Virus record (IMG/VR): IMGVR_UViG_3300042934_001371
Location: 1-25,178 of that record
DNA: 25,178 bases
Strand: one strand, 5' to 3'
DNA from: a virus
Shown one piece after another: positions 932-24,878 of this stretch. Positions within the stretch are counted from its first letter, which is position 1; the number at the start of each line of letters is the position of its first letter. The position numbers and the translations under genes were made by a program. The notes beneath the pieces were generated by a model. That model was not told the origin of the DNA and made no database searches. It worked only from the letters and a program-made list of their open reading frames with translations.

Positions 932-1066
932 ATGAACAAATTATATATGTTTACAATTAAATTATTGAAAAAAGAAGTTAAAAAACAACAGTCCCTTGTT
1001 TCTTATTACAAAGGACTGTACGAGGGAGAGAAAATTAAGAATCAGAATCACCAAAAACCTCGTTAA
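932..1066 (+). CDS. Small basic hypothetical protein, 44 aa
   Basis: ATG at 932 follows GGAGGGA by 5-6 bases, a strong ribosome binding site. The 44-residue product (MNKLYMFTIKLLKKEVKKQQ...) is Lys-rich with an amphipathic N-terminal helix. Its last 32 bases overlap the 3' end of the convergent minus-strand gene at 1035, so the two transcripts would be complementary there. Function unknown. The strong ribosome binding site is the main support. Confidence 0.5.
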   Translation: MNKLYMFTIKLLKKEVKKQQSLVSYYKGLYEGEKIKNQNHQKPR

Positions 1067-1724
1067 GTTTTTTGAAGGATTCTGGATCTTGAGCCGCCAT
1101 TTGGAACATGGGACCAAATAGGCTACTAACAATTTCTGCTTCTGGAGATTTTTGAGGGTGGGAATATTTAGACATGAGTTCTGCAATTCGTTCAGTCTCC
1201 TTGTCATTTCTAACTTGTACTGCAGATTCTAAATGTTCAAGCTTATCAATAATATTTAATAATAAAGTATTGTCGATATTAGTTTCATTTACAGCAGGTT
1301 TTTGAGGTGTTTCAAAAGTCATATGATTAATAGTTTCGAATAGCTTGTTTTTTACACTCTCAACTTTATCAAGATCATTTGTAACGTAATAGATTGTACG
1401 AAGTGTATTTACATCAAAAGGAATACTTTCACCTTCTGTTATTAGAGGAATCAAAGGTAAGCCTAATGCCTGTCTATATCCAAATTCGTAAAAAACATTA
1501 GCATTATGATAACTCAAATCAATAATTACCAGCTCGGATTCAGATAGATATTCTGTAATAGTATGATCAATTCTATCGACCGTATGTAATTGATCTACAC
1601 GAATCACCTCGAATCCTGCCTTTTCACATACTGGTTTTATTATGTGATTTAAAACAGTATCGGAATTCTTTCGTTCAGGAGATTCATCTTGACCAATGGG
1701 AGTAACAAAAAAGCACTTTTTCAT
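1035..1724 (-). CDS. Nucleoside deoxyribosyltransferase/TIR-like domain protein (candidate phage-encoded immunity gene)
   Basis: A 229-residue protein. The N-terminal ~130 residues show the hallmarks of the nucleoside 2-deoxyribosyltransferase-like/TIR-like Rossmannoid superfamily: a first strand ending in TPIG (8-11), a hydrophobic strand ELVIIDLS (64-71), and NANVFYEFG (74-82), where Glu80 is the expected catalytic acid. Residues 140-229 are helical with a possible coiled coil. Related domains hydrolyse nucleotides or NAD and occur as effectors in bacterial conflict systems; activity here is inferred. The ATG at 1724 is chosen over the one at 1733 because AAAGGATG lies 8 bases upstream of the former and abuts the latter. 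It is the only antisense gene in the phage part of the window and has its own TATAAT promoter, typical of a moron. Confidence 0.75.
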   Translation of the reverse strand: MKKCFFVTPIGQDESPERKNSDTVLNHIIKPVCEKAGFEVIRVDQLHTVDRIDHTITEYLSESELVIIDLSYHNANVFYEFGYRQALGLPLIPLITEGESIPFDVNTLRTIYYVTNDLDKVESVKNKLFETINHMTFETPQKPAVNETNIDNTLLLNIIDKLEHLESAVQVRNDKETERIAELMSKYSHPQKSPEAEIVSSLFGPMFQMAAQDPESFKKLNEVFGDSDS

Positions 1725-1748
1725 AGTTATCATCCTTTCTTTTTTTCT

Positions 1749-22927: not shown

Positions 22928-23878
22928 ATGAGCATTGAACAAATGATTAAATGGATGACTGACCGTGAAGGTAAAGTAACCTATTCAATGACAAGTCGAT
23001 TGGGGCCTAACAGTTACGACTGTTCTTCTGCAGTGTTCTTATCCATGATAGCGGGTGGATTCTTACCTAGTGGGTCCATGGGTAACACTGAAACATTATT
23101 TGCAATGTCAGGTACTAAATTGAAAAAAATCAGTCGATCAGAAGTGAAACGAGGAGATATTTTCGTTGCTGGTACTCCTGGGCAGTCCAACGGATCAGGG
23201 GGACATACAGGTATTTTCTTAAGCAACAAGAGCTTCATTCACTGTTCGTATTATTGGAATGGAATTCATACTGATAGCCACGATTCATACATGAGCACTC
23301 GGCTGACGCATAATTTCTACCGTATTGTAGAAACAGAAAGCACAACAACGGGCGGAAAATCTATTGAAGCAGTTGCCAAAGAAGTGATCAACGGCTTGTG
23401 GGGGAATGGAGACAAACGTAATGCAGCATTGAAGGCTGCAGGATATGATCCGACTCAAGTCCAAAACAAAGTGAACAGCTTGCTATCCGGTAATACATCC
23501 TCGAACATTGTTGAGCAATTTACAACATTATCAGTTGATGGTAAGTGGGGACCCGCAGTTACCACACGTCTGCAAGAGTATCACGATACCTATAAAGATG
23601 GCGAAGTAAGTCACCAGTACAAAGAAGCATGTAATGCTAACTTGCATTCGGCTCAATTTGATACTACACTGATCGGGTCTGAATTGATTTGTGTGATCCA
23701 GAAAGGGTTGAAAGCAAAAGGTTATTACTTTGGTGCAGTTGACGGATTGTGTGGAAAGAACACAATTAAAGCAATGCAGAAAGCACTTGGAACAAAGCAA
23801 GATGGAGTTATCAGCTCTACATCTGAAATGGTCAAAGCCTTGCAACGAGCGCTTAATAACAATAAATTGCCTTGGTAA
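22928..23878 (+). CDS. Endolysin: Amidase_5 catalytic domain, CW_7 repeat, C-terminal PG-binding region
   Basis: A 316-residue lysis enzyme. Residues 1 to about 140 are the phage NlpC/P60-like Amidase_5 domain, with catalytic Cys32 in YDCSSAVF and His93 in GGHTGIFL. A single CW_7 cell-wall binding motif follows (about 146-186, EVINGLWGNGDKRNAALKAA, GYDPTQVQNKVNSLL). About 200-316 contain a two-part peptidoglycan-binding-like region (VDGKWGPAVTTRLQEY and VDGLCGKNTIKAMQKALG). It cleaves peptidoglycan from inside once the holin opens the membrane. No signal peptide is present, so export depends on holin. AGGAAGGAAG lies upstream of the ATG. Confidence 0.92.
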   Translation: MSIEQMIKWMTDREGKVTYSMTSRLGPNSYDCSSAVFLSMIAGGFLPSGSMGNTETLFAMSGTKLKKISRSEVKRGDIFVAGTPGQSNGSGGHTGIFLSNKSFIHCSYYWNGIHTDSHDSYMSTRLTHNFYRIVETESTTTGGKSIEAVAKEVINGLWGNGDKRNAALKAAGYDPTQVQNKVNSLLSGNTSSNIVEQFTTLSVDGKWGPAVTTRLQEYHDTYKDGEVSHQYKEACNANLHSAQFDTTLIGSELICVIQKGLKAKGYYFGAVDGLCGKNTIKAMQKALGTKQDGVISSTSEMVKALQRALNNNKLPW

Positions 23879-23927: not shown

Positions 23928-24110
23928 ATGAGCGAACGGATTTCTAAAGAAAGCCTACTTAAAATAAAAGAATTACGAGATGAAATGAAGGATTTAGTGA
24001 ACAAACTTAAATCGGATGAAGAATGGGATTCCTTTACTGCTTTTTATGTTCAAAACTCTTTTTTTAACATGGATGATGCCTATGCTCACGCGTTGGAGGA
24101 ATGTAAATAA
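23928..24110 (+). CDS. Small helical hypothetical protein, 60 aa
   Basis: A 60-residue charged helical protein (MSERISKESLLKIKELRDEM...), with ATG 23928 preceded by AAAGGTG. It is the last plus-strand gene before the presumed prophage end, placed between two hairpins. Small genes at this position in prophages are often expressed during lysogeny, but no sequence sign of function is seen. I do not recognise the family. Confidence 0.6.
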   Translation: MSERISKESLLKIKELRDEMKDLVNKLKSDEEWDSFTAFYVQNSFFNMDDAYAHALEECK

Positions 24111-24143
24111 CGAAAATAAAATATTCAATTCGCAGATAAATAA

Positions 24144-24172
24144 AAGCCCCTTACTCGTTTGAGAAGGGGCTT
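24144..24172 (-). terminator. Strong hairpin, T-tract on the minus strand
   Basis: AAGCCCCTT (24144-24152) and AAGGGGCTT (24164-24172) are perfect inverted copies, with an inner CTC/GAG pair around GTTT. On the minus strand it is followed by TTTATTTATC; on the plus strand no T-run follows. It therefore best terminates leftward transcription, though it also lies after the last phage gene. Confidence 0.6.
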
Positions 24173-24196
24173 GTACATAGATCATATTCGTTTTAC

Positions 24197-24225
24197 TTGC
24201 AGTAATTTAGTTTATGCTATATATT
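24197..24225 (+). promoter_or_regulatory. Promoter of small-RNA candidate
   Basis: TTGCAG (24197-24202) and TATATT (24220-24225) are separated by exactly 17 bases, a good sigma-70/SigA promoter with one mismatch in the -10. TGC precedes the overlapping TATATA, giving an extended -10 character. Transcription would begin near 24232. Confidence 0.5.
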
Positions 24226-24230
24226 AGCAA

Positions 24231-24312
24231 TTGCGTGCAATACTTTATGAAGAGTAGTTAGGCGGTGGTAGCTTGGGGAAGTGTGCCTAATACTCTTCTT
24301 GTTTATTTTATC
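24231..24312 (+). ncRNA. Candidate small RNA with long stem-loop
   Basis: After the promoter at 24197-24225 the transcript would contain a stem of 14 pairs: GAAGAGTA and TTAGGC (24249-24263, with one bulged G at 24257) pair with GCCTAATACTCTTC (24285-24298). The 21-base loop contains an exposed GGGG flanked by CTT/AAG. The right arm runs into TTGTTTATTTTATC, a moderate T-tract. No frame of useful length is present. This suggests an independent RNA of about 80 bases, possibly an antisense or antitoxin-type RNA; no matching toxin gene is seen nearby. Confidence 0.5.
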
Positions 24313-24413
24313 ATTATTTCAATGTAATAGATATTATTGTTCAGAATATAGTTTAAAATCTTTTTATGTTTTTCAGGATATTATAATTGTAAATTCATGA
24401 CAAAATAGAAAAA

Positions 24414-24445
24414 CCCCTTACTCAAATAGAGTAGGGGGCTTTTTT
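24414..24445. terminator. Bidirectional terminator between small-RNA region and minus-strand operon
   Basis: CCCCTTACTC (24414-24423) pairs with GAGTAGGGGG (24429-24438) with one T-G pair, loop AAATA. TTTTTT follows on the plus strand (24440-24445) and TTTTT on the minus strand (24409-24413). The last codons of the minus-strand gene at 24422 lie in the hairpin. Confidence 0.75.
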
Positions 24446-24691
24446 CATTGCTTCGAATTCAATCATAATCTTCGTTTTGCCAATCACCGTATACTTTTTC
24501 ACAACAAATTGTTTCCTACTATTATACTCACCAGCAACCACAATTTGCATTCCTTCGTCAACATCAGCTAAGAAGTTCAAACTATGCGCAGCAATCAAGC
24601 AGTTAACTCCATCAAGAGAGAACCGCACCAAAGGGGTCTTGCTCATCTTCAACACACGTATCTTCGAAACTACACCTTTCATCGATTTCAT
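24422..24691 (-). CDS. Hypothetical small OB-fold-like protein, 89 aa
   Basis: ATG 24691 is preceded by GGAGG with an 8-base gap, so it is preferred to the ATG at 24718. The 89-residue product (MKSMKGVVSKIRVLKMSKTP...) alternates short beta strands (LVRFSLDGVNCLIAAH, GMQIVVAGEYN, QFVVKKYTVIG), a layout like a small OB-fold, as in single-strand or RNA-binding proteins; this is a guess from pattern. Its first 80 bases overlap the end of the upstream gene in another frame. It is the last gene of a leftward operon ending at the bidirectional terminator, probably outside the prophage. Confidence 0.6.
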   Translation of the reverse strand: MKSMKGVVSKIRVLKMSKTPLVRFSLDGVNCLIAAHSLNFLADVDEGMQIVVAGEYNSRKQFVVKKYTVIGKTKIMIEFEAMKKAPYSI

Positions 24692-24878
24692 AACAATCGC
24701 CTCCATAGCGTTGTACATAATAGCGATAATTTGTTTGGCCTAAAGTGACAGCGACATAAAACTCGACACATTTTGTGCCGTATAAAGCTTCCTGAGATTC
24801 AGAAATAGAGTCAGGGAAATCATTTATAAACTCAGAAAGAGATAGGTACCTTTGCTCATATTGAGTAATAATATTCAT
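24612..24878 (-). CDS. Hypothetical acidic protein, 88 aa
   Basis: ATG 24878 directly follows the stop of the upstream gene (TAAATG) with only a weak GGGCGG upstream, so translation is probably coupled. The 88-residue product (MNIITQYEQRYLSLSEFIND...) has a helical start, a beta-rich middle (CVEFYVAVTLGQTNYRYYVQ) and an acidic, Cys-containing end. The family is unknown. Its last 80 bases overlap the next gene in another frame. Confidence 0.55.
   Translation of the reverse strand: MNIITQYEQRYLSLSEFINDFPDSISESQEALYGTKCVEFYVAVTLGQTNYRYYVQRYGGDCYEIDERCSFEDTCVEDEQDPFGAVLS

Follow-up and report, generated by a model that had tools for sequence, protein, structure and literature searches.

The Fst/RNAII (par) locus of enterococcal plasmids is a type I toxin-antitoxin system in which two convergent RNAs share a complementary region. 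CJnc190 and CJnc180 of Campylobacter jejuni form a fully antisense pair, of which one RNA represses its trans target ptmG at the ribosome-binding site and the partner antagonises this repressor in cis, as shown experimentally (PMC8687705). AgvB is a phage-encoded anti-sRNA of E. coli which is associated with Hfq and mimics the sequence of an mRNA substrate (PMC4104026, PMC12803456). RsaE/RoxS of Staphylococcus and Bacillus is common to the core genomes of these bacteria and directs C-rich regions against G-rich Shine-Dalgarno sequences (PMC4409812).

The hairpin locus described here shares with Fst/RNAII the arrangement of two convergent (here predicted) RNAs with a shared complementary region as well as the residence on enterococcal mobile elements, but the hairpin family contains no toxin frame. 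Like CJnc190/CJnc180 it carries promoter signatures that face each other across a shared complementary region, here known from sequence and present on each side in 32 of 36 members. It differs from that pair in phylum, sequence and target. The site bound by the CJnc190/CJnc180 effector is G-rich (PMC8687705), the reverse of the present case, in which a G-rich loop would pair with a C-rich site. It is on this precedent that a decoy role is proposed for the minus-strand RNA (PMC8687705). Like AgvB and other E. coli prophage sRNAs, the RNA is prophage-borne and would act on host regulation, with the minus-strand RNA mimicking spx in the manner of AgvB; unlike these enterobacterial RNAs the family is also chromosomal and multicopy, and no relation in sequence or structure to them is shown (PMC4104026, PMC12803456). 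With RsaE/RoxS it would have in common a Gram-positive host, a conserved short seed directed at translation initiation and a connection to redox, but its loop, unlike the RoxS regions, is G-rich and would bind C-rich coding sequence (PMC4409812). Small RNAs that act by base pairing, that are encoded in prophages or that come with an antisense partner are known kinds of regulator; the family itself, its spread over phages, plasmids and chromosomes, its arrays and its predicted link to Spx were not found in Rfam 15 or in the open-licence literature searched. An Rfam search had been recommended in a preliminary description of this DNA and matched no known family: at the gathering threshold, Rfam 15 gave no match in the window and tRNAs only in ten family loci.

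The window, the whole analysed stretch of 25,178 bases, represents a prophage or phage of Enterococcus type. E. faecium phage records contain a large terminase with 88% identity to its own, and a region of genome G007 matches it at 82-86% DNA identity. The endolysin gene (22928-23878) is followed by a 60-aa ORF (23928-24110), for which a homology search found no relatives, then by the hairpin feature and three small leftward genes. The hairpin had been placed at the prophage edge, where the late genes end. The latter holds, as the spot is the junction of the lysis genes and the leftward genes, but "prophage edge" is imprecise because in phage phiEG37K the lysin is followed by one short leftward gene and the integrase comes after it. 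One of the leftward genes, 24422-24718 (minus strand), belongs to phrog_15227, to which no function is assigned; it has 53 relatives in viral contigs and a DUF5960 gene behind it. The elements of the feature are as follows, A1 being a 43-row alignment of family members.

24197-24225, plus strand: promoter of sigma-A type for the plus-strand RNA, TTGCAG-17-TATATT, from sequence and recurrence in members
24197-24202, plus strand: -35 element TTGCAG, with a 17-base spacer to the -10
24220-24225, plus strand: -10 element TATATT, from sequence
24231-24312, plus strand: predicted sRNA of about 82 nt, its start and end inferred from the -10 position and the T-rich tract
24249-24298, plus strand: hairpin in which a bulged G at 24257 separates 8 pairs from 6
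24249-24263, plus strand: 5' arm of the hairpin, from direct reading and covariation
24264-24284, plus strand: 21-base loop GGTGGTAGCTTGGGGAAGTGT, from direct reading
24272-24284, plus strand: seed CTTGGGGAAGTGT, exact complement of ACACTTCCCCAAG, spx codons 5-9 in genomes G003 and G004
24285-24298, plus strand: 3' arm of the hairpin, from direct reading and covariation
24299-24312, plus strand: T-rich tail, in which the plus RNA probably terminates, from sequence and A1
24305-24313, minus strand: extended -10 TGATAAAAT (motif TGnTAnnnT), 6 nt outside the hairpin
24326-24346, minus strand: AT-rich block, conserved in the alignments and located upstream of the minus-strand -10; may be an activator or UP-like site
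24135-24298, minus strand: predicted antisense RNA of about 164 nt that would display loop CUUCCCCAAG, placed on the basis of the minus -10 and the terminator-like hairpin
24144-24172, minus strand: terminator-like hairpin, then TTTTATTTAT, from sequence and fold

Direct reading of the sequence confirms the promoter, the bulged stem of 14 pairs, the G-rich loop of 21 bases and the T-rich tail reported earlier. The predicted plus-strand sRNA consists of a leader, the hairpin and the T-rich tail, folds with -19.2 kcal/mol and is conserved in A1; the loop lies outside the main helix in the computed folds and forms a mini-hairpin of three pairs. For the minus-strand RNA, the foot of the hairpin is the predicted start and the terminator-like hairpin at 24144-24172 a possible end.

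The feature appears to be non-coding, in keeping with the earlier statement that it holds no protein frame and no Fst-like toxin frame. The ORFs overlapping it are 20-63 aa long; across this stretch and 67 family members neither a toxin frame nor a conserved small ORF was found. A hydrophobic 39-aa ORF (24281-24400) has an in-frame start in 38 of the 67 members, and in 32 of them its frame stops within 15 codons. The preliminary description also considered an antitoxin-like RNA, which has no support, as neither a toxin frame nor a conserved small ORF was found and the neighbours vary in kind and strand. An Fst-type (type I) system was rejected as no small hydrophobic toxin frame is present, and a type III system, in which RNA repeats lie directly upstream of a toxin gene, as the downstream genes differ here in identity and strand. 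A conserved peptide ILSLF..NRYYC running through the tail was ruled out by a frame check in the members. A leader RNA of a cargo gene was rejected because members differ in which gene follows, at what distance and on which strand.

The hairpin belongs to a multicopy small RNA family of the Enterococcaceae that is found in prophages, plasmids and chromosomes, a breadth that had escaped the preliminary description. With the leftward gene 24422-24718 as bait, 53 related prophage loci were retrieved from viral contigs, and the feature recurs at 28 places aligned with the window, in some loci several times. A hairpin pattern matched 31 viral and 22 genome stretches; one viral stretch (L066) and 12 of the 22 genome stretches, which are not from Enterococcus, were excluded as chance matches because their flanks have nothing in common. 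The rows of A1 were found by this pattern and gave rise to covariance model R1, and a second model, R2, was built from 56 members. R1 locates the family in 13 of 105 Enterococcaceae genomes at E up to 0.001 and, at E up to 0.1, detects two to seven copies per genome in six Enterococcus genomes, with seven in Enterococcus casseliflavus NBRC 100478, while R2 at E up to 0.01 finds it in 36 of the 105. Three Enterococcus plasmids bear members as well. Among prophages, L075 has six copies, L078 and L080 have five each and L037 has three. At the prophage end L075:8043-12085 the six hairpins stand in a row with different stems and the same loop. Comparison with named phages gave short weak matches only, and none for a type-2 copy; two chromosomal loci compared with plasmids yielded no match and one transposase match. 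The suggestion that the hairpin might be a boundary RNA of the flanking element finds no support in this distribution, since members occupy lysis-module junctions in some cases and sites among cargo genes, on plasmids or on chromosomes in others.

Folding alone is insufficient as proof of a structured RNA, because the whole feature folds only modestly better than its dinucleotide shuffles (z -1.90; 10 of 200 shuffles equally good) and 12 of 2513 50-nt windows of the record fold no worse than the hairpin. A generic promoter and terminator scan did not list the promoter of the feature and found 10 against 9.7 expected from shuffles. What lifts the feature above chance is covariation together with promoter recurrence (32 of 36 dereplicated members versus a shuffle mean of 4.35). 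In A1, 91.5% of the cells in the 14 pairs are paired (shuffles: 86.0%) and 44 cells carry double changes (shuffles: 15.1); structures slid along the alignment reach at most 47.5% pairing. In a broader alignment, A3, which leans to the search model, the main helix is 95% paired and 10 of its 11 pairs show double changes; there are 103 double-change cells versus 29.6 in shuffles (0 of 500 shuffles), and slid structures are at most 57.2% paired versus 86.1%. The two innermost pairs (38% paired) of R1, and of the fitted structure that A3 and R2 inherit from it, are to be ignored. Ten members folded individually have z values from -2.68 to -5.70. The hairpin is therefore a conserved structured RNA and not a chance fold, and arms without covariation, which had been named as grounds for giving up the candidate, are not what is seen, as compensatory changes occur in both A1 and A3. 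The stems are unrelated in sequence between members while the loop TTGGGGAA stays constant, so that the G-rich loop singled out by the preliminary description is the invariant piece of the family. GGGGAA is repeated in some members, with two units in several, and one subfamily has the loop TTGGAGAA.

For the promoters, 67 same-strand members were reduced to 36 by removal of near-duplicates. A plus promoter of the form TTG-(16 to 18)-TAnnnT is located upstream of the stem in 32 of the 36 (shuffle mean 4.35, maximum 10) and is missing in four; it lies outside R1 and is therefore independent of the search. Beyond the other arm, the extended -10 TGnTAnnnT of the minus strand is likewise present in 32 of 36 (shuffle mean 1.2, maximum 5). 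Although R1 includes this motif, the 43 rows of A1 came from the hairpin pattern and every one of them has it. Four copies, L128 (second copy), L131, L080 (1852) and L037 (1628), keep the plus promoter and lack the minus motif. With promoter signatures on both sides, the hairpin sits between two convergent promoters, of which the opposing one on the minus strand was missed earlier. Covariation and the conserved promoter strongly support the earlier reading of the feature as a candidate small RNA driven by a promoter of its own, whose transcription is so far a prediction. A palindrome in L114-L116 was dropped as an operator of the plus promoter and is better read as a minus-strand terminator.

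Three genomes were searched with the 10-mer complement of the loop, and one recognised gene was matched in all three, which from its protein sequence we take to be spx (MLTLYTSPSCTSC). Spx is a regulator of the thiol and oxidative stress response that binds RNA polymerase. Codons 5-9 of spx read TAC or TAT, ACT TCC CCA AGT or AGC, and the window seed CTTGGGGAAGTGT is complementary to spx of G003 and G004 over 13 exact bases, or longer if G-U pairs are included. Target prediction with the loop, as proposed in the preliminary description, was carried out by simple gene calling on 2410 predicted translation starts that cover 2.4 of the 3.2 Mb of the host-group genome G003, and spx ranks first with -32.7 kcal/mol, the next start having -26.6 (z -5.74). 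CTTCCCCAAG is found in a single one of the 2410 sampled starts, that of spx. In a retest of five loops including that of the window, spx was first for four and second for one. For nine diverse loops against the first 1630 starts it ranks 1, 1, 1, 6, 2, 15, 3, 2 and 1, the 6th and 15th places belonging to the loops of L121 and L109, while the opposite strand of the same nine loops puts spx between 739 and 1525. None of 91 shuffled loops produced as large a gap and two reached as low a z; in another set of 60 shuffled loops the largest gap was 8.5, above the observed 6.1.

Nine or more contiguous pairs with the own spx (G-U allowed) are predicted for 36 of 45 members, and in 26 of 27 cases the predicted pairing with the own spx is stronger than that with the second Spx paralogue. 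The five members with loop TTGGAGAA have just 5 contiguous pairs with their own spx, the seed being lost. In the genomes whose spx has CCCCTAG, none of the 12 members has compensated; CTTGGGG is kept, with CTTGGAG in one, and since the RNA has not followed the change its own pairing is weaker than that with spx of other species. In the remaining members the pairing with the own spx exceeds the mean of other species' spx in 33 of 33. The predicted complementarity of the loop to the spx translation start is thus above chance, and mixed across species; spx is a good but not proven target, and other targets may exist.

The target site is itself unusually conserved. Codons 6-7 of spx (ACT TCC; L173-L202) are fixed in 26 of 26 orthologues and are the sole invariant pair among the 63 conserved spx positions with four or more codons, although TCC accounts for 10 of 108 serine codons later in spx. 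The 26 orthologues were selected by protein sequence from 30 returned spx loci plus three and are mostly close relatives. A Spx-type pattern occurs in 102 of the 105 Enterococcaceae genomes, and by hand tally ACTTCCCC is present in at least one Spx-type gene in 93 of the 105. It is found in all 36 RNA-carrying genomes and in 57 of the 66 others with a match (Fisher p 0.025, hand-tallied and ignoring kinship). As no RNA was detected in 57 of the 93 genomes that have the spx sequence, the codon constraint may have another cause; the conservation of the loop, for its part, could need no target because the loop forms its 3-pair mini-hairpin.

On the computed family, covarying stem, invariant loop, two promoter signatures, complementarity and codon constraint it is proposed that the sRNA represses spx via its loop and that the antisense RNA antagonises it, an account whose probability we put at roughly one half. 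The plus strand would be transcribed into an sRNA of about 80 nt whose stem is free to change and whose loop CUUGGGGAAGU is kept. The loop would pair with codons 5-9 of the spx mRNA, which lie inside the ribosome footprint, and judging from this position Spx translation would be blocked, as pairing within the first codons blocks translation initiation. The minus promoter would give rise to a complementary RNA displaying CUUCCCCAAG, the same letters as the start of spx, and by this mimicry the minus RNA could neutralise the sRNA and relieve repression. For the prophage the gain may be a damped or tunable thiol-stress response, which is speculation. A bolder generalisation, put forward tentatively and held to be less probable than its negation, is that one dispersed enterococcal riboregulator family controls Spx, with one strand as the spx repressor and the other as the spx-start decoy, in arrays of up to six, so that mobile elements and host would bargain through an RNA pairing code that has frozen codons 6-7. 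If the proposed repression of spx is true, prophages and plasmids of a genus that matters in hospitals would be linked through RNA to a central stress regulator, by a short locus with the repressor RNA on one strand and the decoy for it on the other. A reason would also be at hand why two codons of spx, including a rare one for serine, do not vary among the species examined.

A base-pairing sRNA of the same anatomy could act on another target or on several, the spx complementarity being a by-product. The RNAs that ignored the CCCCTAG change in spx, the subfamily with an altered loop and the two GGGGAA units in several members, which fit more than one target, speak for this possibility, yet it is rather doubtful given that spx is first or nearly first for most loops tested and is the one recognised gene matched in all three genomes. 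Roles could also be reversed, with the minus-strand RNA as effector binding G-rich Shine-Dalgarno sequences through its loop CUUCCCCAAG, in the way of the C-rich regions of Gram-positive sRNAs, and the plus RNA as antagonist. Such an exchange would be in line with a minus extended -10 that recurs as often as the plus promoter (32 of 36 each), with a minus RNA in L114-L116 whose predicted end is a palindromic terminator and its T run, and with GGGGAA occurring in 57 of 1630 starts versus TTCCCC in 5. It is nevertheless unlikely: no start stands out and the top energies are spread over unrelated genes, the recurrent top match at 2383145 is an ORF read inside an RNA gene itself, and the four copies that lack the minus motif retain the plus promoter.

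The two other explanations dispense with base pairing to a target. A short invariant loop on freely changing stems is what would be expected if UUGGGGAA were read as an RNA ligand by an RNA-binding protein or nuclease, but the complement of the loop falls on a conserved and codon-constrained site in spx, which makes a purely protein-directed role quite improbable. That the feature only terminates transcription, or gives the late operon some other signal at the DNA level, would conform to the T-rich tail and the position after the lysis genes but is very improbable in view of the invariant loop, the feature's own promoter and the plasmid and chromosome copies away from lysis genes. Repression of spx by the plus-strand sRNA with an antisense decoy is the reading preferred here.

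Several observations concern the surroundings of the members. In the window itself, a leftward gene of 232 aa (1035-1733, minus strand) lies among rightward genes; it belongs to phrog_3634 of unknown function, and its product had no match in a Pfam search and presumably resembles nucleotide-binding effector domains. On two of the three carrier plasmids (L139 and L140), a gene annotated as an Fst-family toxin lies no more than a few kb away. The chromosomal members L325:1627-1698, L123:1363-1436 and L337:1808-1881 adjoin tRNA genes, as integrated elements often do. In four different prophages (L004, L028, L030 and L037) a cargo gene of about 90 aa, which starts with MKVDKLHYRK, follows the RNA by 182-197 bases. 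Right next to the members of two genomes (L130 and L131) there are inverted repeats around a sequence resembling GAACTTTTTGGTTC, as is typical of terminators or small mobile units.
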